Shown here: in pieces, positions 4,658 to 22,442 of the stretch
Layout: each line of letters begins with the position of its first letter
How positions within the stretch are numbered: the first letter of the stretch is position 1
Origin: Homoserinibacter sp. YIM 151385
GTDB taxonomy: Bacteria > Actinomycetota > Actinomycetes > Actinomycetales > Microbacteriaceae
Assembly (NCBI RefSeq): GCF_027912415.1
Contig: NZ_CP115175.1
Coordinates: forward strand, 1,674,001 to 1,738,000
Direction: 5' to 3'
DNA: 64,000 bases
The notes under the pieces: generated by a model
Databases searched by the model: none
What the model saw: only the letters and a program-made list of their open reading frames with translations
What the model was told of the DNA's origin: nothing
Made by a program: the position numbers and the translations under genes

Positions 4658-5085
4658 CAGGCCAGAGCGAATGACGTGGCGGAGACTATCGGCGCTCAGT
4701 TATCGGGTGTTGGAGACCCGTTCGCCGTGCCGCCTCGACTCGAGTGCAGATCTCCGTGACTGTCTTCTCCGCTTCCGCGCGGAGCGGCTCGGTGAGCGCA
4801 GTAGCTCGCGTAACAGGACGGGTCGACCTTGACTCGTCTTGGGTCGGGGCCTTCTTCGCCGGCCGCCGGTAGGAATTGAGGGTCGCGTGACGCTCGTGAA
4901 TCGACCATTCGATCTTGCTGCGCCTCACAGCGTCATTCAGCGCCCCCGCCAGCGGCTCCATCGGCGCGATCGCGACGGATGACAACTCCTGCCGGCCGAT
5001 GCGTCCGCCAGAGCGGTGACACCTAGTATCGCGATCGCTCAAGCGGGCGGCCTGCCGAGCCACGCCCGCCAGCCTCAGGGTTCCA
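4658..5085. other. Gene-poor, lower-GC stretch at the island edge
   Basis: About 430 bp without a convincing gene. A minus-strand frame of 125 codons (4686-5063) is open, but no family is recognisable and its composition is not protein-like, so it is not called. The base composition is less GC-rich than the surrounding genes. It marks the left edge of the toxin island and may hold degraded DNA. Confidence 0.4.
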
Positions 5086-5313
5086 CTACAGGCGCGTAAT
5101 CCCGAAGACGATCCCGAATATCCCGAGCGCGACCCCTACGATTCCAACGAAGGCGATCATGCCAGCCGAGGGCGCTCTGAAGAAGCGCGTGGATTCTCTT
5201 GCCTCATACCTGGAGTACAGATTCGCTAGAGGCTTACGCCACCTGATCATCGCTAGCCCGAGCAAACAGGCCGGAACGCCGAAGAACAAGATCGTCATCC
5301 ATACATTGCTCAT
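5086..5313 (-). CDS. Candidate immunity protein of the orphan RHS tip (two-helix membrane protein)
   Basis: 75-residue membrane protein. One hydrophobic helix is at about residues 3-20 and a second, glycine- and isoleucine-rich helix at about 52-73, with a short basic loop between (YSRYEARES). The ATG is preceded by GAGGTG, and the stop codon of the orphan RHS cassette lies inside that ribosome-site sequence 7 nt upstream, so the two are translated together. A small gene directly behind an RHS C-terminal tip is the classic place of an immunity gene. The membrane location suggests that the cognate toxin acts at the membrane. Function is inferred from position only. Confidence 0.6.
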   Translation of the reverse strand: MSNVWMTILFFGVPACLLGLAMIRWRKPLANLYSRYEARESTRFFRAPSAGMIAFVGIVGVALGIFGIVFGITRL

Positions 5314-5320
5314 GAACACC

Positions 5321-6751
5321 TCACAGTGGTACGTCCCACGATCCGCTAAATCCTGCCGAACAGCCCAGTTGGGCCCCGGCCGCCGCCCCGGCCGCAATAT
5401 AGCCAGTCCCCGGTCCGCCCCAACCGGCCTCGATGTTGCCGCCGCCTGTTACCACGGCGCTGCAGCGCCCGAGCACCGCCATGCCGGCTGATCCCCCCAA
5501 GGTTAGTACCGGCCCCACTGAGACACCGACTTCGTTGCCGGCCCCGGCTTGGACTGAAATTCTGAGGGCATCGCTGTTGATGTAAGACACACCCACGCCC
5601 GCACACACGAAGAAACAAGCATCAAAACTCACGCCGACACCCACCTTGTTGACGACGGCCGCACGCACTTCCTTCCGGACAGTCTCAATGAGGTCTTCAA
5701 CCCACTGCGGAAGGCTGAACTTAGGCCGATCCGGCGACGGCGGAGCTGGCCCGAGCGCGATCCCACCTCGTGAGGTGCGCCCTGGTCTAGCCTTCTTCGC
5801 CGCTGCCATCGCCTTGATCGCCGCCAGGGTGCCGATCCCGTCGATCCACATGACCTCACCGCTCAGGTCGAAGCCGTTGATGGGATCGGAGGGGTAGTCG
5901 TAGTTGTTGGTGACGCCGCCTTCGACCGGGTCCACCTCCAGGAACCGCCCGAGCGCCGGCGCGTAGACCCGCGCTCCCATCTGGATGATGTGAATGCTGC
6001 CCTGCCGCTCGGTGAGCTTGCGGTGTGAGCCCACCCACCCGTAGTCCGCATCCGAACCGCCGATCGTGTCGGGTCCGGCATCGTCCGCAGCCGATGTGCC
6101 GATCCGTCCGGTGACCGGGTCGATCGGCTGTCCGAACGGGTCGTATGTCGCACGTGTTCCGGTGCGAGCGCCGGCGTCGTCGGCGGTGAGGATCAGGTCA
6201 CCGTGCAGGTTCGGGTACGCCCACCGCTCGTCCGCACCCGCGGGCAGGGTCACCATCGCCCCGCCGGGCAGCGAGATCGTGCGCTCCAGGACCTGCCCGG
6301 CTTGGTTGAGCGTCGCCCACGCCCCGTCCCCGTCACCGGTGAAGGTGAAGCGGAGCACCTCCGGGTTCTCGCCTGGTGGAGTCATGGTGCGCTCGATGAT
6401 TCGATCGGATGCGTCTCGCAGGTACTCGATCACCGTCCCGTCGTCGAGTTCCGATCGGATGTGCCGGTCGGCGACGTCGTAGACCAGCCGGTGGTCGGCG
6501 AGGCGGGTCGTGTTGCCGTGCGCGTCATAGGTCAGCGACGGCAGCGGGGCCGTCATCGACAGGCTCACGCTGCCGACCGGCGCCGTGTCCGGGTGCGCGC
6601 CCGTCACCTGGGTTCCGGTGAGGCGGTCCACCCAGTCGTGGCAGTAGGTCACGGTTGTCGGGGTGCCGCCGTCGAAGGTGTCCGAGAACGAGGTGCGGTT
6701 GCCGAAGTTTACGGCCGCGGTGTCCTCTGCAAACGCGTTTCGCCCTCGCAT
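5321..6751 (-). CDS. Orphan RHS C-terminal cassette (RHS core plus alternative toxin tip)
   Basis: 476 codons. Residues 17-299 repeat, without a gap, the last 283 residues of the RHS core of the large gene upstream (about 80% identical by hand count), ending in the cleavage-region motif [11 protein letters not shown]. After that point similarity stops. Residues 300-476 form a different tip: a basic linker, an amphipathic segment ([17 protein letters not shown]), then a long glycine/valine/alanine-rich hydrophobic stretch with several cysteines, suggestive of a membrane-inserting domain. The protein lacks a signal sequence and RHS barrel, and no good ribosome site is seen before the ATG at 6751. 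It is best read as a silent, displaced tip that can recombine into the main gene, carried with its own immunity gene. Confidence 0.8.
5855..6703 (-). repeat. RHS core duplicate, copy 2 (GC-rich)
   Basis: 849-bp segment encoding 283 residues colinear with 7917-8765. Protein identity is about 80% and most nucleotide differences are third-position. This copy keeps the high GC of the host; a 60-bp sample gave 77%. It is a stretch in which homologous recombination could swap toxin tips. Confidence 0.85.
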
Positions 6752-6981
6752 GCGGATTCGACATCGCGATCACCGGTGGTCACTGGACCGGACATAACGA
6801 GGATTATCGGACATCTGAGAATCGCGATAATGGCTGGACCGCCTTTTGGCAATGCGATAGCTCACAACCCCCGAGCCCAAGGGTGCGGTCCTGCAAGCGC
6901 CTGGTTGAGCGAGGCTTCAGCTGATCGAGGTCCCGCAACGCACCTCGGCTGATCGCGCACTATAACTGCCTTCAGTCCGCG
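6752..6981. other. Junction between the two toxin cassettes
   Basis: 230 bp between the candidate lipoprotein immunity gene and the orphan cassette, of lower GC. It holds a direct repeat CGGACAT (6789-6795 and 6808-6814) and an inverted repeat ATTATCG ... CGATAAT (6803-6809 and 6825-6831). These could be an old insertion-sequence end or a recombination site, but no transposase or integrase is nearby. The orphan homology begins just inside the neighbouring frame at 6703. Confidence 0.35.
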
Positions 6982-7407
6982 TCAGTCATCATCGGCCGCG
7001 GAGACCTTTTCGAATTTAGTGATGGTGGCTGTAAGCCTCGACAACGCTTCGCTACCGGTCTCGGCGTTGTCGCGTTCGACGATGCACACCCATTTGAACG
7101 TCTCGTCGCCTCCCGTCACCGCCTCCGTCCCGCCGGTTTCGAGCTTGCCCTCAAGTCGGTACCGATAGGGGCCGGAGCCGTCCTCCGGTGTGCTTTCCTG
7201 GATGGGGTCAGAGATATCGGAGAGCTGGGTTCTCTGGGGCGCGCGATCAGAGGGCCGCAGCGATCCGTCAGCGGCTGCCCATGCGCAGGCGCGAGCGAAG
7301 CCGTCTTGAGATCCTGAGTACTCGACCTCGATGTCATCCGACTCCGTGTAGCTCGAGCAGCCAGCCAGAAGACCCGCCGACGCAGCGGCCGCCAGTGCCA
7401 CTCGCAT
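6982..7407 (-). CDS. Candidate immunity lipoprotein of the main RHS toxin
   Basis: 141-residue lipoprotein. Its signal sequence ends in lipobox LLAGC at about residues 14-18, and the mature domain carries cysteines at ARACAW and KWVCIV. The start is ATG at 7407, or GTG at 7416 that overlaps the toxin stop codon; either way it is directly coupled to the RHS gene. A surface-anchored protein translated immediately after an RHS tip is best explained as immunity against a toxin arriving from outside or exported by the cell itself. No family recognised. GC content is lower than in the host genes. Confidence 0.6.
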   Translation of the reverse strand: MRVALAAAASAGLLAGCSSYTESDDIEVEYSGSQDGFARACAWAAADGSLRPSDRAPQRTQLSDISDPIQESTPEDGSGPYRYRLEGKLETGGTEAVTGGDETFKWVCIVERDNAETGSEALSRLTATITKFEKVSAADDD

Positions 7408-7412
7408 CGATC

Positions 7413-10400
7413 TCACCAGTTGCACGCGCCCCCCAGCCCTCGCTGCTCTATGATCCTTGCTCCCGCTGACATACCCCAGTCGGGGAGGTCCGGACGTCTC
7501 ATTTCCAGATCGTAGTAGGGATCGTTTGTGTACACGAGACCAGAATGCCCGGCAACATGGCAATCATATTGTTGCTTCACCGACGGTACGTCTAGCAGAT
7601 GGCCGTGCGCCTCGACCAACTGCTTCCACCCGAGTTCACCGAGTGAACCATTGGCCAGCTCGAACGTGAACGCGGGTGTGAATTTCACTCTGAGTTTCGG
7701 TCGCCCGCCCTGACCTTCCTCCACGATCACCTCGGAGTACTCGAATCTCTCACCGGCTGGGTAACGCACACGCTTTCGCGCAATGTGTACTCGGGCTCGT
7801 AGCGCAGCAGACGCCCGGCGGGACTGCTCGTGAAAACGCTCGATGACAGCGATCGATCGACTGATACCGCGATTGCCGCCCGGGCCGCCGCTACAGAAGT
7901 TTCTGACGCACATGCGTTCACCTGACAGATCGAAGCCGTTAATTGGATCCGCGGGGTAGTCGTAATCGTTCGACACGCCGCCTTCGATCGGGTCAATCCC
8001 GAGGAATCGGCCCAAGGCCGGCACATATACTCGGGCACCCATCTGAATGACGTGGATGTTCCCCTGTCGCTCTGTGAGCTTCCGGTGCGAGCCGACCCAC
8101 CCGTAGCCAGCATCTGAGCCGCCGATCGTATCGGGGCCGGAGTCGTCCGAGGTATTAGTGCCGATTAGCCCAGTGAGGGGATCGATCGGCTGCCCGAATG
8201 GGTCGTACGATGACCGCGCCCCGGTTCGCGCTCCGTTCGAGTCCGCCGTCACGATCAGGTCACCGTGGAGATTTGGGTACGACCAAGTCGCGTTTCCACC
8301 CGCCGGCAGAGTCATCATTGCTCCGCCTGGCAAGGAAATCGACCGCTCGATCACGTGACCCGCCCCGTTCAATGTTGCCCATGCCCCGTCACCCGAGCCG
8401 GTGAATGCGAAACGGAGCACCTCTGGCGCCTCGCCAGGCACGCTGAGAGTACGTTGGATGATCCGATCGGACGCGTCCCGCAGGTACTCGACGACGGTTC
8501 CGTCGTCGAGTTCAGAACGTATATGCCGGTTAGCTGCGTCGTAAGAGAGCTGATGGTCGGAAAGTCGAGTCGTGTTCCCATGCGCGTCGTACGTCAGCGA
8601 GGGCATCGGGCCTTCCATAGTCAGGTTTACGCTTCCGACCGGCGCGGTGTCCGGGTGCGCACCTGCAACTTGAGTTGCGGTAAGCCGGTCCGCCCAGTCG
8701 TGACAATACGTGACCGTCGTCGGAATTCCGCCATCGAGGGTGTCTGAGAAAGACGTGCGGTTGCCGCTCTTGCCGGCGTGCGAATTTTCACCGCAGCTGG
8801 TGTTCATATCGAAGCGATACTCGAGTACGTGTCTTGGGATTTCCGCCTTCGTCAGCCGGCCGGCGGCATCATATGTGTAGTCGGAAATTTCTACGGTTGT
8901 GTCGTCGGTGAGAACGCTCCGAACGATACGGCCAGCCTGCGATCTCTTGACTTGCTCTGCCACGTCGGCGCCGGTGGCGAAGTTCCAGGTGGAGCCGGTC
9001 TGTACGCCGGCAGCGTTTCGAGTGAGGCTGGTGAGAGCGGAGCCATTGCCATACTCGACCGATTCGAGGAGTCCTGTGGGGCCATATGTGGACTGAGCCA
9101 TCTCCACCCCGTCGACAGTCGTGGTGAGCAGGTTCCCGTCCAGGTCATAGGTGAACTCACTGACCGAGTCGGCGCCCGAGGGCGGCTCGACCTTGGTCGA
9201 GAGCACCCGGCCTGTCCTCGATTCGTACTCCGAGCTCGTCCTAGTACCCCAGACATCCACATACGAGACCGACTGGCCGAGCACATCAATCTCTGCCGTC
9301 GTCGTTCCGGTTGGATCGGTCGTTGCAGCCACCAACGGGTTGCCGCCTACTGCATAGTCATTGGTCACTACGCGCTGGGGTTCGCCTCCGAAGGCGGCAT
9401 AGGTTGAACTTGTTGCTCTCCCCCGGGTGTCGTAGGTGACGCACGACCAGTCGCTGTCGCCGGATCGCTTGGTGCCGACGGTGCGGCCCATGACGTCGTA
9501 GACGTACTGCGTCTGGAGCCGGTTGCCGGAGGAGTTGAGCGGTCCCTGCGAGCTCTTCGCCATCCCGTACTGCTTGCCGCTGGCATTCGTGCAGGTATTG
9601 GCGAGCGCGTTCTCGGTGGCGCCGTAGGCCTGGAACTTGGACTCACCGGCGTCCGAGCTCGCACCGACCGCCGCCGGGAGGCGCTTCGTGAGGCGGCGCA
9701 GGAACCCGTCGCCGGGCTGCTCGTACGTGGTCGCGGTCGCGAGTGCGAGGCCGTCGGGGTCGACGATCGACTTGGTCGCCGCGCCGAGCCACGGGTGCTC
9801 GTACTGGACGCTCGCCGTCAGCGAGGTGACCTGGGTGGCGGCGACACCGGCGGGCGCTTCGTCGTGGGTGATGGTCTTGTTCGCGAGACCGTAGTCCGGC
9901 GACAGTGCCGACGCGGGGACGGCCTCCCACGGGGTGCTCGCGCCGGGGCGCTTCCACTGCAGTCGGAGCTTGGCGTTGCCGGTCCGGTCGACGTAGTGGA
10001 GGCGGATCTTCTCCTGCTGCCCGGCCGTCGCGGGGTAGGTGAACGGCACGGTCAGCTGCGCACCTTCGTTGTTCCACCGGTCGAGCACCTCGATGTCGTC
10101 GAGCCACATCGAGACGCCGTCGTCGGCGTTGATGCGGAACTGGTAGTCGCCGGTGTCGGGGAAGGTGATGAGGCCGGTGATGCGGGCGGACCAGTTGTTG
10201 TTGCTGGTCGCGCCGAGCTCGGCCGGCTGAGAGGCGACCCAGTCGTGATCGATCACGCCGCCCTGTTCGTCGTCCTCGAGGCCGAAGGTGTGGATCTTCG
10301 GGACGCCGGCGAGGTAGGGGTTGGCGTGGTACATGACGTGCAGCCCATGAAGCGATTCGTCGTACCGCGTCTCCGAGTGCGCCGGCGTGATCGGGCAGCT

Positions 10401-13400
10401 GGCGAGCGGTGTCCGATCCGCGGCGAAGCAGCTCGCGGGTGCGGGGCCGTAGCTGTGGGTGGGGCGGTCGCTCGAGTCGTAGATCGTGGTGGTCATCAGC
10501 CCCTGCGGGTCGGTGGCCGAGAGCACCTTGTCTTTCGGATCCCACACCTGGGTTGCGGTGAGGCCCATCGCGCTCGTGGTCGTGAGCTGCCGCCACGCAT
10601 CATCGAAGGTGACGGTGGTGGCGTGCGTCCCAGGGGGCATGTCGAGGCCGTCGACGTCGACGTGAGTCGTGTCGGCGGCGGCGTAGGTGTAGATCTTCTT
10701 CGGCCGGTCTGCCGCGGTGGCCCCGTCGGGGGCGGGAAGGGTGACCGAGGTGATCTTGCCCTCCGTGTCGTACTCGAGCTGGGTGGTGACGAGCTCAGGA
10801 GTGGCGGTCGGGTTGACGGCGAGCCAGTCCATCGCGAGCGAGTCGGTGATGGCGTTCAGCCGTCCGAGGCTGTCGCCGTAGGAGAAGCGCGTGATCTCCG
10901 ACCCCGGGTCTTCGATCTCTCCGAGCCGGTAGACCTTGAGGTCGGGGACGTTGTTGCCGGGAAGGTCGACGATCTGCTCGGTGTACTTCAGCTTCGTCTT
11001 CGTGCCGTCCGGGTAGCGGATCTCGCACAGGTACCCGGGGTGCGGCCGCTTGAAGTCACCTGCGGTATCGCACGTGGGAGTCGTGCTGCTGGTCTCGTAG
11101 TGGAAGGTGACCTGCCGGTCGTAGACCGGTGGATTCGCGGTTCCGACCCGGGATGCCGGGTCGCTGATCGAATCCAGGACGGATGTCCCGGGCTTGTAGG
11201 CCGGGATCGGCGTCGACTCCTTCTTCGAGTCCCCCGGCGCGGCGACGGCACTGAGCTTGCCGGCCTTCGTGAACGAGTACACGGTGCCGTCATCCTCGAC
11301 GAGCGTCACCGCACCCTTGCTGTCGAGGGCGAGAGTGCCGTACTCGCCCTTCGGGGTCTTGAAGCTGCGCTTCGTGGCCTCCCCGTTCTTCTTCGTCTTC
11401 TTCTTCGGATAGGTGTGCTTGCCGCCCTTCCGGTCGGTCAGCACGACCGCGGACTCGGTGACCTTCGCCTTCACGTAGGCGCTTGGGCCGCCGACCAGCG
11501 GCGCCGACGCGTCCCATCCGGCGGGGAGGGTCTGCTCGTCCGGGGTGAACCACTGGGACGGCACGACGAAAGACGGGCCGTAGGTGCTGCCGGTCATCTC
11601 GCGGGCCCAAAGCGAGACCTCAGCGCCGTTGCGGTGATCGAAGAACGCAAACCGCATCGGCACCGCGGAGCCGTTGAAGGTGTGGTTGCCGCCCCACTTG
11701 AGTCCGGTGCGGTCGACGTCCCAAGCATCGAAGACGGTCTTCTCGGCCGCCCCAGGCGGTGCGAGGATCATCTTGACGCCGGCGTCTCGCCGGTACCCGA
11801 ACTGCCACTTCCCCGCCGGCGGACGGATCTGCCCGGTCCACCGGATCATGAAGTCATCGTGCGGCACACCCTCCGCGGGCGACTCGTTCTTCGCCCACTT
11901 CGCGTTGATGGCCGACTCGGTGCGCACCAGCACCGGCTCACGACTGCCGAAGATGTACGACGGCTCGGTCTCGCCCTCGTCGATCGCGTTGTAGTACGAC
12001 GCGGTGAGTCCGAACTCGGAATCCGGCGCGGTCAGGGTGTCGTAGTTGAACGACATCCCCATCGGCCCGCCGAGGGTGTTCACCATCGGAGAGCCGAAGC
12101 TGAGGTTGCCGTTGCCGTTCGCGAGGTTCACCGTGATCGGCCCAGCGGTGTCCTGCGGTGACGGACCGGCAGTCCCGACGCGACGGTTGACGGTGAAGGA
12201 GTGCGTCCAGGAGGCGTCGAGCTCGGAGTCCACACCGTCGTCGGTGAGGATCATGTACGAGTACCGTCCACCGTCCTCGAGGACCCCGGTCGGCACCGTG
12301 AACGACGGCGACGGCTTCCACTCGGAGGTGTACACAACGCCGTTGATGCCGTCGTCGCCGGTCACGACACGCAGCCGATACGTGACTGGCGACGACGGTG
12401 TCGACGAGTCCGGGTCGGTGACGGTGCCGGTCGTGATGGTCGGGGTGAGCGAGGTGATGACCGCGTCATCGTCGATGCTCGCCGAGGCTTCGGCGGGAGT
12501 CGGCGCCGGCTGCTGTGTGGTGAAGTTGCGGCCGTCCTGGGACTCGTCGAACTTGTCCGGCCCCAGAGCGTTGAAAAACTTGTCGCGGACGTACGCCTTC
12601 CAGTAGTACTTCTTCCCCGGATCGAGAGGGCCGCTCGGGACCTGCTGCTCGGCCTCCTTCGACCAGTCCGACTCCCACACGGTGTCCGAGTGATCCGACT
12701 TCGTGCTGATCCGATACTTGAACGCAAGACCATCACCGGAGGGATCAGTCGCGGTGATCTTGAACGTCGGCATCAGCGACACCTTCGTCTCTCCGTTCCC
12801 CGGAGACGGGGCGGGAGCTCCCGTGATGTCAGGGAGGTTCTTATAGGCCACACCGAGCTGGAGGTCGAGCTGCTTGTAGCTGTACGCGGAGCCCTCAGCT
12901 CCTCGGATCATCAGGCTCTTCCCGACGACCTCCTTTCGCACCCAGTACTCGATCTGCTCTTGCAGGTTCGGGCCGTTGGCAGTGCCCGACGTGTCGATGC
13001 TCCACAACTGCAGACGCTCGCCCACACAGGAGTATCCGGCGCAGTCGGAGGTGTTGACCGATCCCTGCTGCGAAGTCGTGGTCCCTCCGACATACCCGGC
13101 GCCGAGAGCAACTTCCCATACCTGCTTGCCGAAGAGATTCGAGTACGGGAACTTCACCTGCGAACGCCAGTAGGCGTTCGTGTTCGATTCGCGGGTGTTG
13201 CCGATGAACACGCCGTCCGTCCGGGTGGCGCCGTTCGACTTGAACGCCGCCACGTTGCTGTCGCCGTAGGTCGTCGTCGGGTCCACCGACACCGGGTACA
13301 CACGGGCAGGGTCCGTCAGCCAGTCCAGATCCGGGGCGAGCGAGAACCACCACTTCGATCCCGCCTCGACCACCGTCGCATCGACCGGCGCGCTCGCCGG

Positions 13401-14276
13401 CTCACGCATCCCCTCGACCCCGGAGGAATCCCACATGAGCGGCGCCGGGATCGAGAAACGGATCTCATCGTCGGCATCGAGGAACTCGAAACCGCCGAGC
13501 TCGTTCTCCACGATCTCCAGACCGGGAGCGTCGACCTCGAAGACCCACACCGGCGCCGAGTCCGGGGCGCCGTCGAGGACGAGCGTCTCCTTGACCGCAC
13601 CGGTCTGGACCTCGTAATTGAGGTCGACACCGGAGAACACGTTCGCGTAGGTGACCTCGTTGTCGTCCGCCGTCGCCGGACGCGCCGCAGCGCCGAGCAG
13701 CGAGAAGGACACGTCGTAGTCGCCATCCGTCACCGTGAGCAGATCCGGATTGCTCGAGGAGTTCTCGAACTCCGGCGCCAGCGGGTGCTCATCCGCGACC
13801 AGATCCCCTCCCCCGGCCGAGACGACCTCGTCGGACGCGGCAACCCACTCCCCGTCTGCCAGCTGCACGTTCTTCGGCAGCCGCGACAGCAGGGAGACGT
13901 TCATGCCGTCGCCGGCGTCGTAGACGGTCTCGTACAGCGAACGCGAGATCACATCGGACTCGGCCGGGACGAAGTCCTCGAGCACGTCCGCATCGACACC
14001 TGCACCCTCCGCCGGCGTCGACACCTCCGTGTCGCCCGCCGACAGCGAGGCGTCCCCGGAGAAGTCACCCTGCGGCACGAACTGCGCTTCGCCCTCCACC
14101 ACCGCGTTGGGGATCAGCGGGACCGCGCTGTGCGTGCCCGGATCGGTGAGATCGACCTCGACGGACTCAGCCGCAGCGTGAGGGACCTCGGCCGCCGTCA
14201 ACGTCCCGGCGACAAGTGCGGTCGCGGTCAGAGCGACAAGGCAGACAGTCCGAACCGAATGCGAAAGGAGTGACAC
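7413..14276 (-). CDS. Secreted RHS-repeat polymorphic toxin with PA14 domains
   Basis: 2287 residues from a GTG start that gives a Sec signal peptide (hydrophobic [16 protein letters not shown], cleavage near AAAES). The open frame continues upstream but without a signal. Order: N-terminal beta-rich secretion region (about 35-450), fibronectin-like repeats (about 500-740), a first PA14-like domain (about 755-895, FGLTASYY), a clear second PA14 domain (about 1310-1450, ending LRLQWKRPG), many YD/RHS repeats (for example YDVMGRTVG and YDAAGRL), then the RHS-associated core (YDPFGQP ... GRFLGIDP), ending at residue 2120. Residues 2121-2287 are the variable tip. It ends QYDCH ... [14 protein letters not shown] ... 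CNW, a cysteine/tryptophan pattern like DUF2599 proteins (from memory, not searched). The toxin activity is unknown. GC drops from about 70% to under 60% inside the gene near 9420, so the last 670 codons look imported. Confidence 0.9.
7917..8765 (-). repeat. RHS core duplicate, copy 1 (lower GC)
   Basis: 849-bp segment within the large RHS gene, colinear with 5855-6703 and about 80% identical at protein level. A 60-bp sample gave 58% GC against 77% at the matching place in the orphan copy. The two copies therefore did not arise by a recent local duplication. Confidence 0.85.
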
Positions 14277-14445: not shown

Positions 14446-15669
14446 TCAGCGCGAGCGGGTGCGGCGCTTGTTCCAGACGTCGAAGGCGACCGCGACGAGC
14501 AGCACCATGCCCTTGATGAACTGCTGGTAGTCGGTCCCGACGCCCATGAGCGACATCCCGTTGTTGAGCACGCCCATGATGAGGCCGCCCGTGATGGCGC
14601 CGACGACGGTGCCGACACCGCCCTGCACGGCCGCGCCGCCGATGAAGGCCGCCGCGATCGCATCCAGCTCGAAGAGGTTGCCCGCGCCGGGGCCCGCGGA
14701 GTTCAGGCGGCCCGTGAAGACGAGGCCCGCGAGCGCCGCGAGTGCGCCCATGTTCACGAACAGCCAGAAGTCGATGCGCTTCGACTTGATGCCCGAGAGG
14801 TCGGCCGCGTGCCGGTTGCCGCCCACCGCGTACACGTGGCGGCCGAAGACGCTGCGGTTCGCGAGCACCGTGTACACGACGACGAGGAGCCCCAGCACGA
14901 CGAGCACCACGGGGGTGCCGCGCGATCCGTCGGCGACGCCGAGCAGGTAGGTGAGCACGAGGATGAGGCCCGCGCCGAACGCGACCTTCACCGCGAACCA
15001 GGCCACCGGCTCCGACTCGAGGCCGAGGCGCACCCGCTTCGCACGACCGCGGAGCTGCGCGCCCACGAAGAAGACGAAGGCGAAGGCCCCGAGGCCGACC
15101 GTGATCCACTCGACCGGCGACGAGCTCGGCGGGAACAGCTGCGGGAACAGGTACCCGCCGCCGAGCTGCCGGTACTCGGTCGGGAACGGCGTGATCTGCG
15201 TGTTGCCGAGCACGATCTGGGTGAGCCCGCGGAACACGAGCATGCCCGCGAGCGTGACGATGAAGGCCGGGATGCCGACCACCGCCACCCAGAAGCCCTG
15301 CCACGCGCCCACGGCGAGGCCGATCGCGAGGGAGGCGAGCATCCCCGCCCACCACGGCCAGCCCCAGTCGACCACCATGACGCCCGACATGGCGCCGACG
15401 AAGGCCGCGACCGAGCCGACCGAGAGGTCGATGTGGCCCGCGATGATGATGAGCACCATCCCGATCGCGAGGATCAGGATGTAGCTGTTCTGGACGATGA
15501 TGTTCGCCACGTTGCCGGCCGTGAGCAGGCGCCCGTCGGTCAGCACCTGGAACAGGGCGACGATGACGAGCAGGGCGATGAAGATGCCGATCTGCCGCAG
15601 GCGGCTCGCGAGGAAGCCGGCGGCGCTGCGGATCGTCGAGGGTGCGGCGGTGCGCTCAGCCGAGGACAT
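14446..15669 (-). CDS. mmsB: Sugar ABC transporter permease (MmsB/XylH type)
   Basis: 407-residue inner-membrane permease of the ribose/xylose (BPD_transp_2) family with about ten hydrophobic helices. It carries the family signatures [27 protein letters not shown] and [18 protein letters not shown]. It starts ATG within the end of the ATPase gene (14-nt overlap), so the two are coupled. With the adjacent ATPase and binding protein it forms a ChvE-MmsAB/GguAB-like importer. Lying directly behind araBDA, it most likely brings in L-arabinose and related monosaccharides. Confidence 0.92.
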
Positions 15670-17200
15670 GGTCGGCCTCCTTCTCCTTGGTCATGTACTG
15701 CATGAGCAGCTCGGGGGTCGCCTCGGCCGCGGGCACCTCGCCCGTGATGCGGCCCTCCGAGAGCGTGTAGATGCGGTCGCAGATGCCGAGCAGCTCGGGC
15801 AGCTCGCTCGAGATGACGAGCACGCCCTTCCCCTCGGCGGCGAGCCGGTTGATGATCGTGTAGATCTCGTACTTCGCGCCCACGTCGATGCCGCGCGTCG
15901 GCTCGTCGAGGATGAGCACCTCGGGGTCCGAGAACAGCCACTTCGAGAGCACGACCTTCTGCTGGTTGCCGCCCGAGAGCTTGCCGACCACGGCATCCAC
16001 CGAGGGCGTCTTGATGCTCATGGACCGGCGGTACTCCTCGGCGACGAGGTGCTCGCGCCCGTCGTCGACGAGGCCTGCCGCCGCGAGCTTGTCGAGCGCC
16101 GCCATCGACACGTTCCGCTTGATGTCGTCGATGAGGTTGAGGCCGTAGCGCTTGCGGTCCTCGGTCGCGTAGGCGATGCCGACGCGGATCGCGTCCGCGA
16201 CGGAGCGGATCTGGACCTCGCGGCCGTGCACGAGGATCCGGCCCGAGATGCGGGTGCCCCAGCTCCGGCCGAAGACGCTCATGGCGAGCTCGGTGCGCCC
16301 GGCGCCCATGAGGCCCGCGATGCCGACGACCTCGCCCGCCCGGACGGCGAGCGACGCGTCGTGGATGACGACCCGCTCGGGGTCGGCGGGGTGGTGGACG
16401 CGCCAGTCCTCGATGCGGAGCACCTCCTCCCCGAGCTTCGCGTTCCGATCCGGGTAGCGGTGCTCGAGGTCGCGGCCGACCATGCCCTTGATGATGCGGT
16501 CCTCCGTGACCTCGCCGCTGTCGAGCTCGAGCGTCTCGATCGTGCGGCCGTCGCGGATGATGGTGACCTCGTCGGCGATCTCGCGGATCTCGTTGAGCTT
16601 GTGGCTGATGATGATCGAGGTGATCCCCTGCTCGCGCAGGTGCCGGATGAGGTCGAGCAGGTGGGCGGAGTCCTCGTCGTTGAGCGCCGCGGTCGGCTCG
16701 TCGAGGATGAGGAGCTTCACCTCCTTCGAGAGCGCCTTCGCGATCTCGACGAGCTGCTGCTTCCCCACCCCGATCTCGCTGACGCGGGTAGCGGGGCTGT
16801 CGCCGAGTCCGACGCGCGCGAGCAGCTTCGAGGCCTCGAGGTTGGTGGCGTCCCAGTCGATGAAGCCGCGCCGCTGCCGCTCGTTGCCGAGGAAGATGTT
16901 CTCGGCCAGCGAGAGGTGCGGGCTGAGCGCCAGCTCCTGGTGGATGATGACGATCCCGGCGCGCTCCGAGTCGCGGATGTCGCGGAACGACTGCTCCTCG
17001 CCCTCGAACACGATCGCGCCGTCATAGCTCCCGTGCGGGTACACGCCCGAGAGCACCTTCATCAGGGTGGACTTGCCGGCGCCGTTCTCGCCGCAGATCG
17101 CGTGGACGTGACCGCGCTCCACCTGGATCGTCACATCCTGCAGGGCCTTCACGCCCGGGAACTCCTTCGTGATGCCGCGCATCTCGAGGATCGTGCTCAT
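15656..17200 (-). CDS. mmsA: Sugar ABC transporter ATP-binding protein (MmsA type)
   Basis: 514-residue double ATPase typical of monosaccharide importers. The first half has Walker [10 protein letters not shown], the unusual signature [14 protein letters not shown] and Walker [12 protein letters not shown]. The second half has a degenerate P-loop ([10 protein letters not shown]) but an intact [15 protein letters not shown] signature and [14 protein letters not shown]. It energises the permease encoded by the overlapping downstream gene. The neighbouring ara genes point to L-arabinose as the main substrate. Confidence 0.94.
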
Positions 17201-17231
17201 CTCGCCTCCTTCGCGTCGTCGCGTGGCTGCG

Positions 17232-17268
17232 CGGGAGGCGGGGCGGCGCGGTGCCGCCCCGCCTCCCG
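17232..17268 (-). terminator. Strong hairpin between binding-protein and ATPase genes
   Basis: Perfect 16-bp GC-rich stem with a 5-nt loop (CGGGAGGCGGGGCGGC and its complement) in the 73-bp gap. Such hairpins commonly stabilise the upstream binding-protein transcript or cause partial termination, giving more binding protein than ATPase. No U-tract is present. Confidence 0.65.
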
Positions 17269-17273
17269 GCGGA

Positions 17274-18386
17274 TCACTTCAGATCGTCCTCGGTGTAGTA
17301 GTCGCTGTCCACGAGGATCTCCTCGTAGTCGTCGACCGTGACGATCGTCGACGCGAGCAGGAACGAGGGCACGACCTTCACGCCGTTGTCGTAGGTCTCC
17401 GTGTCGTTGACCTCCGGCTCGTCGCCCTGAAGCACCGAGTCGACCATCGTGACGGCCTGCTCCGCGAGGAGGCGGGTGTCCTTGAAGATCGTCGAGTACT
17501 GCTCGCCGGCGATGATCGACTTGACGCTGCCGACCTCCGCGTCCTGGCCGGTCACGACCGGCAGGTCGGAGGCGGCGTAGCCGCCCGAGGTGAGGGCCGA
17601 GATGATGCCGATCGAGAGGCCGTCGTAGGGCGAGAGGACGCCGTCGAGCTGCGTGTCGCCGATGACGGTGAGGATGTCCTCCATGCGGGTCTGCGCGGTC
17701 TCGGGCAGCCAGCGCAGGATCGCCGCCTGCTCGAACTCGGTCTGGCCGGACGGGACCTCGATCGTGCCCGCGTCGAGGTACGGCTGGAGGGTGTCGATCG
17801 CGCCGTCCCAGAAGAACTTGGCGTTGTTGTCGTCGGGGCTGCCCGCGAAGAGCTCGACGTTGAAGGGGCCCTCCTCGCCGGTCTCCTCGCCGCTCTCGTC
17901 GAGGATGCCGAGCCCGGTGAGCAGGGACGTCGCCTGCTGCACGCCGACCTCGTAGTTGTCGAAGGTCGTGTAGTAGTCGACGTTCTCGGTGCCGTTGATG
18001 AGACGGTCGTAGGCGATGACCGGGATGTCCTGGTCGGCCGCCTGCTGGAGCACGTCGGTGAGGGTGGTGCCGTCGATCGAGGCGATGATGAGCGCCTCGG
18101 CGCCCGAGGAGATCATGTTCTCGATCTGCGAGACCTGGGTGGGGATGTCGTCGTTCGCGTACTGGAGGTCGACCTTGTAGCCGAGCTCCTCGAGCTGCGT
18201 CTTCACGTTGTCGCCGTCGGCGATCCAGCGCTCCGACTGCTGCGTCGGCATGGCGACGCCGACGGTGCCGCCGGCGGTCTCGCCGTCGTCGCCGCCGCCG
18301 GTGCGGTCTCCCGAGCAGCCGGCGAGCGCGAGCGACGCGATCCCGAGGGCCGCGATCCCGATGAGGGTCTTCTTCGACTTCTTCAC
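17274..18386 (-). CDS. chvE: Sugar-binding lipoprotein of the ABC importer (ChvE type)
   Basis: 370-residue periplasmic-binding-protein-like lipoprotein starting GTG, with AAGGAA upstream. Basic N-terminus, hydrophobic helix and lipobox LAGC at about residues 21-24, then a Peripla_BP_4 sugar-binding fold with [40 protein letters not shown] and [10 protein letters not shown], as in ChvE. It captures the sugar outside the membrane for the downstream ATPase and permease. It lies 86 bp after araA in the same direction, which fits one araBDA-transporter operon. Confidence 0.92.
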
Positions 18387-18472
18387 GGTGGTTCCTTCCC
18401 GATCTGGGTGGTGCAGGTGGTGGTGGGTGGATGGGGTGGTGCGAGGGGTGGTGCGGTCCGGTCCGCGGGCCT

Positions 18473-19999
18473 CTAGGTGGCGAGGCCCTGCGCGAGCCGG
18501 TGGTAGGCGGCGTTCCAGCGGAGCTCCCGCTGGAAGCCGCCGAGCTCGGTGCTCTCGTCGATGACGAGGAGCTCGGTGCCCGTCATCTCGGCGAAGTCGC
18601 GGATCACGTCGATCCCGAGCTGCGTCGTCATGACGGTGTGGTGGGCGGCTCCCGCGGCGAGCCACGCGGCGGCGCTCGTGCGGAAGTCGGGGGCGGGACG
18701 CCAGACGGCGTGCCCCACGGGGAGCTTCGGCATCGGCTCCGGGAGCGGGACGTTCTCGACCACGTTCGCGGTGAGGCGGAAGCGGTCGCGGAGGTCGCTC
18801 ATGGCGATCACGAGCGCCGGGCCGGGGTCGGCGGTGAAGACGAGCCGGACCGGGTCGTCCTTGCCGCCGATCCCGAGCGGGTGCACCTCGAGCCGTGGCC
18901 GGCTCGTCGTGAGCGAGGGGCTCACCTCGAGCATGTGCGCGCCGAGGATGAGCTCGGCGCCGGGCTCGAGGTGGTACGTGTAGTCCTCCATGAGGCTCGC
19001 GCCGCCGGGCAGGCCCGCGCCCATGACGGCGGCGGCCCGCACGAGCACGGCGGTCTTCCAGTCGCCCTCCGCGCCGAAGCCGTAGCCGTCCGCCATGAGG
19101 CGCTGGACCGCGAGGCCCGGCAGCTGCCGGAGCCCGCCGAGGTCCTCGAAGCTCGTCGTGAACGCGCCGAAGCCGCCCGCCTCGAGGAAGGATCGCAGCC
19201 CCGCCTCGATCGCCGCGCCGTCCCGGAGCGCGTCGTGGCGCTCGCCGCCCGGACGCAGCTCGGGCGCGACCTCGTAGGACTCGAGGTACTCCTCGACGAG
19301 CGCGTCGACCTCGGGGGCCGGGGCGGCCTCCACCGCCTCCGCGAGCTCGGTGACGCCCCAGGTGTTGACCTGCACGCCGAAGCGCAGCTCCGCCTCCGTC
19401 TTGTCGCCCTCCGTGACGGCGACGTAGCGCATGTTGTCGCCGAAGCGGGCGAGCCGCAGCTCCCGCAGCGCCGCCCGGCCGGCGGCGGCCCGCGCCCAGG
19501 TCCCGACACGCGCGGTGACGGCGGGATCCGAGACGTGCCCGACGACGATCGTGCGCGGCACGCCGAGCCGGGCCGTGATGTAGCCGAACTCGCGGTCGCC
19601 GTGCGCGGCCTGGTTGAGGTTCATGAAGTCGAAGTCGATCTCCGACCAGGGCAGCGCGAACTCCGCCTGCGTGTGGAGGTGGAGCAGCGGCTTGTCGAGC
19701 GCGTCGAGCCCCGCGATCCACATCTTCGCGGGGCTGAAGGTGTGCATCCACACCATCACCCCGATGACGCGCTCGTCGGAGTTCGCCTCGAGCGCGGCGC
19801 GGCGGATCGCGGCCTGGTCGGTGAGGACGGGCCGCCAGACGACGCGCGCCGGCACGTCGGCGCTGCCCTCGAGGCCCGCCGCGACGCGCTGCGACTGCTC
19901 CGCCACCTGGCGGAGGGTCTCCTCGCCGTAGAGGTGCTGGCTCCCGGTGAGGAGCCAGATCTCGCGCTCGGCGGGATCGGGGACGATGCTGCGGGTCAC
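18473..19999 (-). CDS. araA: L-arabinose isomerase
   Basis: 508 residues, the normal length. It converts L-arabinose to L-ribulose, the first step of arabinose breakdown in the cytoplasm. Family hallmarks include [11 protein letters not shown] near the N-terminus, [26 protein letters not shown], the metal/substrate region [11 protein letters not shown] and the C-terminal [12 protein letters not shown] with its metal-binding histidine pair. The GTG start overlaps the araD stop (GTGA), so araD and araA are translationally coupled. Confidence 0.97.
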
Positions 20000-20706
20000 T
20001 GGAGGGCTCCTTGCGGCGACTGGCCGTAGACGTTCTGGTAGCGGTCGTAGAGGGCGTCGATCTGCTCGGGGGCGAGCGCGACCGGCTCCCCCAGCTGCCG
20101 GGCGATGTGGATGGTGCGCGCCGCATCCTCGACCATGACGGCCGCCTTGACGGCATCCCGCGCGTCGCGGCCGATCGTGAAGGGGCCGTGGTTCGCCATG
20201 AGGACGGCCCGCGAGCGGTGGCCGCGGAGCGTCCCGACGATGCCCCGGCCGATCGAGTCGTCGCCGATGAGGGCCAGGGGGCCGATCGGGATCTCGCCGC
20301 CGAACTCGTCCGCCATCCCGGTGATGACGCAGGGGATCGGCTCGCGGCGGGCCGCCCAGGCGGTCGCGTAGGTGGAGTGCGTGTGCACGACCCCGCCGAC
20401 CTCCGGCATCTCGCGGTAGACGTAGGCGTGCGCGGCCGTGTCGGACGAGGGGCTGCGGTCGCTCCCCGGCGTCGCCGGGACGACGACCCCGTCGAGGTCG
20501 CAGAGGACCATGTTCTCGGGCGCGAGCTCGTCGTAGCCGAGGCCGCTCGGCTTGATGACGAAGAGCTCGGCGCCGGGCACGCGGCCCGAGACGTTGCCGC
20601 CCGTCCACACGACGAGGCCGTTGCGGGTGAGCTCGCCGTGGAGCGCCGCCACCTCCTCGCGGACGCGCGCGATCTGCACCTCGATCTCGGGGGCGAGCGT
20701 CGGCAT
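19996..20706 (-). CDS. araD: L-ribulose-5-phosphate 4-epimerase
   Basis: 236-residue class II aldolase-family epimerase that makes D-xylulose 5-phosphate, the last step before the pentose phosphate pathway. It shows the phosphate-binding [18 protein letters not shown], the zinc site [13 protein letters not shown] and the later ANHGPF histidine. The ATG overlaps the araB stop by one base and is preceded by GGAGGT. The gene order araB-araD-araA is compact and co-translated. Confidence 0.96.
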
Positions 20707-22442
20707 CACGCCACCTCCTCGGCGGTGCTCGCGAGGGCGGCCGCACGGCGGCGCTTGAGCCGGCGCATGACCTCGCTGCCGCCCCGGCCGAAGTGGTCGT
20801 GCAGCTCGCGGTAGTCGGCGAAGAGCGCGTCGTAGGCGTCGGCGGATGCGGCATCCGGCACGAAGGCGGCGTCGATCCGGCGGCCCATGGCCTCGCCCGC
20901 GGCCCGCACGTCCGGGTAGGCGCCGGCCGCGACGGCGGCGTGGATCGCCGCGCCGAGGGCGGGACCCTGCTCGCTGCCGATGACGTCGATCGGCATCCGG
21001 AGCACGTCCGCGTAGGTCTGCATGAGGCGCCGGTTGCGGATCAGCCCGCCCGCCGCGACGAAGCGCGTGACGGGCACGCCCGCATCCCGGAAGGTCTCCA
21101 CGATCTGCCGCGCGCCGAACGCGGTCGCCTCGACGAGCGCGCGATAGACGTCCTCGGGGCGGGTCGCGAGCGTGAGCCCGACGACGAGCCCCGACAGCTC
21201 GGTGTCGACGAGCACGCTGCGGTTGCCGGAGTGCCAGTCGAGGGCGAGGAGGCCGTGCGCGCCGACGGGGCGCGCCCAGGCCAGCTCGGAGAGGTGCTCG
21301 TGGACGCTGCGCCCGGCGGCCTCGGCCTCGGCGCGCAGCTCCCCCGGCACCTGCCGCTCGACGTACCAGCCGAGGATGTCGCCGACGCCCGACTGGCCCG
21401 CCTCGTAGCCGTAGAGGCCGGCGACGATCCCGCCGTCGACGACTCCGCACATCCCCGGCACCTCGGCGAGGCGGTCGGAGCTCATGACGTGGCAGGTCGA
21501 GGTGCCCATGATGGCGACCATCTCGCCCGGCGCGGTCGCGCGGGCGGCGGGGGCGGTGACGTGCGCATCCACGTTGCCGACCGCGACGGCGATCCCCTCG
21601 GGGAGGCCCGTCCAGGCCGCGGCCTCGGCCGTGAGACCGCCGGCGCGGTCGCCGAGCTCGCCGATCTCGTGGTCGAGCTTGTCGTCCGCGAACCCGGCGA
21701 AGTCCGGGTTCAGCGCGCCGAGGAACGCCGCGCTCGGCGAGGCGCCGTCCTGTCGGATGCCCTTGTAGCCGGCCGTGCAGGCGTTGCGGAGGTAGACGCC
21801 CGAGAGCTGCCACACGATCCAGTCGGCCGCCTCGATCCAGTGCACCGTCCGCGCGTAGACCTCGGGGTCCTCCTCGAGCAGCTGGAGCGCCTTCGCGACC
21901 TCCCACTCGCTCGAGATCGAGCCGCCGTAGCGGGGCAGCCAGGTCTCGCCGCGCTCGGCCGCGAGCTCGGTGATGCGGGTCGCCTGCGCCTGCGCCGCGT
22001 GGTGCTTCCAGAGCTTCACGTAGGCGTGCGGGTGCTCGCGCAGCTCGGGCAGGTCGCTGAGCGGCGTGCCGTCGGCGAGCACCGGCATCGGGGTGGATGC
22101 GGTGAAGTCGGTCGCGACCCCGATGACGCTCGCGGGATCGATGCCGGCCGCGCGGATCGCGGCGGGCACGGCCTCGCGCAGCACCTCGACGTAGTCGGCG
22201 GCGTCCTGGAGCGCCCACTCGGGCGGGAGCTCGGCGCCGGTCGCCGCGAGCTCGCGATCCATGACGCCGTGGCGGTACTCGTGGACGGCGGAGCCGAGCT
22301 CGGCGCCGTCCTCGACGCGGACGACGAGCGCGCGGCCCGAGAGCGTGCCGAAGTCGATCCCGACGACGTGGCGGGCGGGCTGCCGCGCCGACGACGCCGC
22401 GTGCGGCTCGGCCTGCGGCTCGGCGGGGGATGCGGCGTTCAC
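20706..22442 (-). CDS. araB: L-ribulokinase
   Basis: FGGY-family kinase phosphorylating L-ribulose. It has the N-terminal ATPase motif [11 protein letters not shown], the substrate segment [28 protein letters not shown] and the C-terminal [20 protein letters not shown] place the start at GTG 22442 (578 residues), which has GGAG with 5-6 nt spacing. The frame stays open to GTG 22502, but that start would lie inside the operator. First gene of the arabinose operon. Confidence 0.95.

Follow-up and report, generated by a model that had tools for sequence, protein, structure and literature searches.

A lower-GC relative probably supplied the rhs gene of Homoserinibacter sp. YIM 151385 with a new tip, on an import of about 2.7 kb that displaced the gene's old 3′ end. 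The gene lies in a window of 64,000 nucleotides (contig NZ_CP115175.1, positions 1,674,001 to 1,738,000), to which all coordinates below refer. Rhs arrays are thought to grow as new tips displace old ones, and incoming and resident cores are usually too alike to delimit the imported tract. Here a composition step marks both tract ends, and the tip seems to have travelled together with about 1.5 kb of core and a candidate immunity gene. The features concerned are the following.

9420..14276, minus strand: 5′ part of the rhs gene, with a secretion-signal-like N-terminus (judged by eye), PA14 and RHS/YD repeats
9417..9441, minus strand: composition junction at codon 1748/1749, within a YD-repeat stretch (YDTRGR)
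7914..9419, minus strand: 3′ core of imported appearance (codons 1749-2250), with a GC3 of 0.695 and with Rhs_assc_core and DLSG at its end
7413..7913, minus strand: attached tip, a toxin candidate with DUF2599 in its C-terminal part, GC3 0.651
6982..7425, minus strand: candidate immunity gene for a small protein, its GTG start overlapping the tip stop
6673..9417, no strand: low-GC block, the presumed insert, found gene-blind (GC 0.610 inside against 0.671 outside)
5843..6706, minus strand: orphan core, homologous to active codons 1967-2249 (81% amino acid and 75% nucleotide identity), GC3 0.878
5321..5842, minus strand: orphan tip, without a Pfam family, GC3 0.688
5086..5391, minus strand: small membrane-protein-like open reading frame (ORF) after the orphan tip, a candidate for the old immunity gene, judged solely from position and by eye

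The rhs gene is a single open frame of 2416 codons on the minus strand (14663-7413), intact across the junction. Its mechanical ORF start at 14663 falls inside the upstream permease gene; by our own count, translation likely begins at a GTG, codon 130 (about 14276), which immediately precedes the secretion-signal-like stretch. The gene has the make-up of a Rhs/YD-repeat polymorphic toxin, with RHS/YD repeats and a core domain that precedes the tip. PA14 scores 89.8 bits, the RHS repeats 33.3 bits for PF05593 (cut-off 22) and 42.1 for TIGR01643 (cut-off 15.8), and the Rhs-associated core TIGR03696 33.5 bits in the active gene and 39.2 in the orphan (cut-off 32.5). A DLSG motif near codon 2249 closes the active core. 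DUF2599 (PF10783) reaches 25.7 bits against a gathering score of 25 when the tip is scanned alone, and 20.0, below that score, in the whole protein. The AlphaFold model of the tip (alignment A2) was too poor to rely on (mean pLDDT 45.8, pTM 0.30). Downstream of the gene, the orphan frame (6769-5321) contains 283 codons of homologous core followed by a different tip; outside the aligned core, the two tips do not match. The best Pfam hit of the small ORF at 5086..5391 is TauE, below its cut-off.

The attached tip is matched in three of 397 other genomes of the family (E ≤ 0.001), and its stop is overlapped by the small ORF taken as the candidate immunity gene. The predicted product has a lipoprotein-like start, as judged by eye, and found one weak match among the fetched loci, in Agromyces albus (L075, 37%). 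DUF2599-type tips with a partner frame that overlaps the tip stop occur in the window (7413-7425) and at L061 (12445 and 17174), L087 (11302) and L046 (14431). These partner frames start with M/V-QLV; by eye, the partner is lipoprotein-like in the window and membrane-protein-like in L061, L087 and L046.

The composition break within the rhs gene is real and sharp. GC3 is 0.894 over codons 151-1748 (as over 9420-14213 for the 5′ part) and 0.684 afterwards. A likelihood scan from codon 151 to the gene end places the change point after codon 1748, at window position 9420 (2-log-unit interval 9417-9441), with a log-likelihood ratio (LLR) of 68.7. No permutation came as high: shuffling codons gave at most 7.5 and shuffling 50-codon blocks at most 43.4, in 300 runs each. 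In steps of 50 codons, GC3 runs at 0.84-0.96 through codons 1051-1750 and at 0.60-0.82 over the rest of the gene, from codon 1751 on; codon positions 1 and 2 stay at 0.49-0.63 GC on either side, without a step. A break at 9425 inside one rhs frame had been proposed from the letters of the sequence, and its position was essentially right. The sampled GC values behind that proposal, about 70% and then 57-62%, agree with 500-bp windows of 0.706 at 9501-10000 and 0.594-0.634 in those spanning 8001-9500, and the profile is stepped rather than smooth. GC3 is a better measure than raw GC, because raw GC also falls to 0.62 at 12.5-13.2 kb, where GC3 is 0.72-0.90. The adjoining ABC transporter genes (permease, ATPase and binding protein) have a GC3 of 0.978-0.986.

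How unusual this break is can be judged from 35 aligned core-spanning genes, the window gene included, from Microbacteriaceae, Cellulomonadaceae and a few MAGs. Genes entered the set with a match from before codon 1100 to after codon 2200, or if they exceeded 1500 aa and included the end of the core. The set includes genes truncated at a contig end or by a frame break, and excludes the remaining partial or orphan ORFs. The fall in GC3 across codon 1749 is largest in the window gene (−0.233, against −0.148 to +0.119 in the 34 relatives), and so is the LLR for a break within the core, 51.4. Next come Okibacterium fritillariae L056, with 29.4 at about codon 1648, and L099, with 17.1 at about codon 1571; in 32 of the 34 relatives the value is 14.5 or less. 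As the window gene far exceeds these 32, the core break is not a family trait.

These figures also bear on the extremely unlikely reading that no recombination took place, the step being a regional trend of rhs codon usage or the product of a chimeric assembly. In keeping with a trend, each of the 34 genes in which a tip was measured (the window gene among them) has a lower GC3 there than in its 3′ core, and weaker core breaks occur in two relatives. Tips of lower GC are a known Rhs pattern. The contrast of 51.4 with values of at most 14.5 in nearly all relatives argues against it, and a chimera is at odds both with the intact frame at the junction and with the contig, one sequence of 2.88 Mb (completeness 99.84%, contamination 0). 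In L056, the GC3 of the rhs gene (5060-11836) changes from 0.797 to 0.628 near reference codon 1648, and no orphan core is listed within the fetched stretch; this gene may be a second case of such a break.

The extent of the tract emerges from a GC scan over 5843-14213 that took no account of genes. At a step of 5, it returned one low block, 6673-9417; at a step of 20, the block spans 6723-9422 with an LLR of 14.8, a value not reached when 60-bp blocks (200 permutations, maximum 9.2) or 150-bp blocks (200 permutations, maximum 9.9) were shuffled. The step-5 LLR of 15.1 compares with a maximum of 13.4 in 40 permutations, a less even comparison as these were made at step 20. One end of the block coincides with the codon-1749 junction and the other is no more than about 35 bp from where the orphan core starts (6706). 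It holds the last 500 core codons, the DUF2599 tip and the candidate immunity gene (GC3 0.725 over 6982-7395), besides a spacer at 6707-6981 with 60.0% GC; blastn found no match to 6707-6990 in the rhs gene. As core end, tip, partner gene and spacer all fall in one low-GC block, they look like a single import of about 2.7 kb. That a new tip had come with part of its core was anticipated by the original prediction, and about 500 core codons do lie beyond the GC3 step. The longest word shared between the block ends has 8 bases, so this search for microhomology was not informative.

In its composition, the orphan core resembles the 5′ part of the rhs gene, which supports its being the displaced old 3′ end. 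Its GC3 of 0.876 (248/283) is close to that of the 5′ part (1429/1598, 0.894; p=0.35). Over the corresponding codons, the active gene has a GC3 of 0.693 (196/283), with p=1.5e-16 against the 5′ part and p=1.3e-7 against the orphan. The foreign-looking sequence thus sits in the active gene and not in the orphan, as had been claimed, even if the GC values first quoted for the pair (77% for the orphan, 58% for the active gene) were extremes of short samples; over their whole lengths, the orphan core has 68.5% and the active 3′ core 61.0% GC.

The active and orphan cores align over 283 codons without gaps, at 80.6% identity in protein and 75.4% in DNA, and differ at 87 of 136 fourfold sites (0.64), so that their synonymous divergence appears near-saturated. 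Differing sites with AT in the active and GC in the orphan core number 41, against 13 of the reverse kind. Among 31 core pairs from the same locus elsewhere, the window being left out, the fourfold difference is 0.01-0.52 (median 0.25) at a median amino acid identity of 91%; pairs were required to share at least 150 columns and at least 40 fourfold sites. A set of 88 cores, whose matches exceed 110 aa and extend past codon 2230, gave 24 pairs of the longest ORF with another core, from 15 other loci; in L083, L086 and L094, which have no full-length gene, the longest ORF was taken as the main one. Identity in these pairs is 0.69-0.98 and fourfold difference 0.01-0.44; GC3 differs by at most 0.07, compared with 0.18 in the window pair. 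Several loci of the family, namely L045, L046, L062 and L077, carry three to four further core-and-tip frames beside one rhs gene.

The window pair resembles pairs drawn from different genera (n=3004), in which the fourfold difference has a median of 0.58 and an upper quartile of 0.64, and falls within their range. In 20 other-locus pairs with a protein identity of 0.80-0.86, it is 0.35-0.65 (median 0.45). The value of 0.64 therefore stands at the extreme among pairs of similar identity as well, and part of it may reflect the difference in composition itself.

Strong divergence between the two cores would also be expected if the orphan were a separate acquisition and the import had replaced the old 3′ end completely. 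The orphan lacks codons before 1967, moreover, so its continuity with the 5′ part is not directly readable. This reading is unlikely given that the orphan core equals the 5′ part in GC3 and abuts the low-GC block, and that further cores stand beside a related core in the 15 other loci (not all on the same strand, e.g. in L054). Survival of the old end as the orphan, as originally proposed, is consistent with its 5′-like composition, with the amendment that this end survives only from codon 1967 on.

Trees were made for two core segments, 35 rows each, with codons 1250-1748 as the 5′ segment. This segment pairs with a gene of Salinibacterium SWN248 (99/91); grouping with Homoserinibacter L045+L070 was not rejected (p=0.135) and grouping with L061+L062+L063 was (p=0.007). 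The 3′ segment falls within a clade of seven rows that includes the Salinibacterium SWN248 gene (L046), with the order inside the clade not resolved; the best tree again joins the window gene to this gene, as a weak pair (72/35), and grouping with L045+L070 (Homoserinibacter and its sister) was again not rejected (p=0.569). With a window branch of about 0.6 changes per site in both, the segment trees cannot decide, and no discordance between the 5′ and 3′ segments was found among these rows. Phylogeny had been named as a check on the original prediction; it gave a partner for the 5′ side and a clade for the 3′ side, and speaks neither for nor against a grouping of both sides with shared relatives. 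As the trees do not decide, the claim of an import rests on composition and synonymous divergence.

The low GC3 of the Salinibacterium gene, the nearest relative of the 5′ segment, could be taken to mean the opposite polarity, with the low-GC 3′ part original and the 5′ 1748 codons replaced by high-GC DNA. The orphan core and the 5′ part, however, match each other and are nearer to the host in composition, and the low-GC block, which has one end close to the orphan, takes in the tip together with its small partner; all this makes the reversal highly improbable. Taken together, the import-and-displacement interpretation is partly supported.

In a quick tree of 74 cores of at least 200 aa, the active and orphan cores of the window are sisters (SH-aLRT 100), on branches of 0.19 and 0.056, respectively; the donor would therefore belong to the same core lineage. 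Matches to the 3′ core were sought in 398 genomes of the family, 27 and 9 of two other genera and 396 of the order, as well as in 288 relatives and 59 genomes, sets that overlap and are samples, and the donor was also sought on plasmids (at the DNA level) and genome contigs. It was not found, and nothing in the sampled genomes is as close as the orphan, which matches along the 3′ core at 78%, compared with 55% for the best of the others. Short pieces of the 3′ core reach at most 64% in the genome searches and, among the named loci, 72% over 53 aa at best. The codon usage of the 3′ segment, compared with the relatives' rhs genes, pointed to no clear donor genus. On this reading, the donor would be a relative of the same core lineage in another, lower-GC genome that is absent from the samples searched.

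A sequence of events that could account for the locus is as follows. About 500 core codons, the DUF2599 tip and the candidate immunity gene would have entered the rhs gene by recombination at codon 1748/1749, and the old 3′ end (the core from codon 1967 and the old tip) would have been pushed downstream as the orphan. Core homology would anchor one end, and the other would join without homology; codons 1749-1966 of the old copy were presumably deleted at this joining, which would explain the missing 650 bp or so of old core. By analogy with known Rhs biology, the new tip would be displayed as a toxin against bacteria, and the old module would persist, probably silent. By our reasoning, a simple crossover with a circle would not fit, because the orphan core starts at codon 1967 and would be expected to start at or before 1749. 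We favour one-sided homology joining over a later deletion of the 218 codons.

Displacement of Rhs C-termini is known from Enterobacteriaceae, with crossover with a circle as the model (PMC2935791). According to that paper, very high core identity is thought necessary; attached and dissociated cores share 91.6% of amino acids in Serratia and are ‘always identical’ in the E. coli strains. The window locus has the same plan, an intact, active rhs gene followed downstream by a partial core with an unrelated tip, and shares with the loci described there core fragments of variable length and GC-poor tips. It departs from them in its cores, which are far from near-identical (81% amino acid and 75% nucleotide identity, 64% of fourfold sites different), and in a compositional step some 500 codons before the tip. 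It is filed here as a variant of Rhs C-terminal displacement with a diverged donor.

Two further systems offer partial parallels. For T6SS effector-immunity modules of Vibrio cholerae, PMC5361080 proposes homology-facilitated illegitimate recombination, with one homologous anchor, one illegitimate end and older pieces shifted downstream, as suggested here. The proteins and the secretion route are different, and mainly old immunity genes remain in Vibrio, whereas the window locus retains an old core with its tip. In Salmonella (PMC3967940, as related in PMC5361080), a main gene is likewise accompanied by an adjacent orphan module, and the orphan replaces the variable end of the main gene within the strain; the mismatch in the window points instead to an outside donor. 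Among the open-licence papers listed for Rhs in Actinobacteria or Microbacteriaceae, or for DUF2599, none names this family in its title or at the start of its abstract.

It is conceivable, though we hold it only tentatively, that Rhs tips are exchangeable in this way, by one-sided homology, across diverged cores (about 75% DNA identity now). If this is true, near-identical cores are not a requirement for tip displacement, which can then also take place between genera of the Gram-positive Microbacteriaceae. With the GC3 step placing the core end of the incoming tract within about 25 bp, the locus forms a natural test of circle crossover against one-sided homology, and of how much core difference exchange tolerates.

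Where the swap occurred is a separate matter. The rhs locus lies directly behind an ABC transporter/arabinose gene cluster (14446-22215), whose part at 18476-22215 encodes L-arabinose isomerase and a class II aldolase family protein. The 3′ core, matched in 58 of 398 sampled family genomes including its own (E ≤ 1e-20), has no match in any of the four other genomes of the genus (E ≤ 0.001). In three of the four stretches fetched from these, arabinose genes come directly after a related permease, and rhs is not matched; in the fourth, no window ORF is matched on that side. The locus itself may thus be foreign, with the displacement older than its arrival, and the whole may have come as a ready mosaic island after a swap in an earlier host, a reading to which we give a real chance, somewhat short of even. 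Besides these findings in the genus, it draws on relatives on two plasmid records and on the GC3 of the rhs 5′ part, which at 0.890 lags the flanking-gene median of 0.962 by 0.07. This lag, however, is within the family range, ranking fifth among 34 loci (crude ORF calls). The island reading overlaps with the displacement favoured here, as it concerns where the swap occurred, not whether it did.

Related rhs cores are present on plasmids NZ_CP021994.1 and NZ_CP040793.1 (Cryobacterium and Clavibacter), typed as mobilizable in PLSDB; mobilizable plasmids are a possible route of rhs spread. One locus of the comparison, L108, is on a contig labelled Acidobacteria, and its rhs gene pairs with one from a Glaciihabitans MAG (97/90 in the 5′ tree), which indicates either a mis-binned contig or a distant transfer. 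Finally, an antisense open frame of 209 codons (8778-9407, plus strand) runs over the imported core and ends near the junction; it is probably a chance frame in GC-rich DNA.
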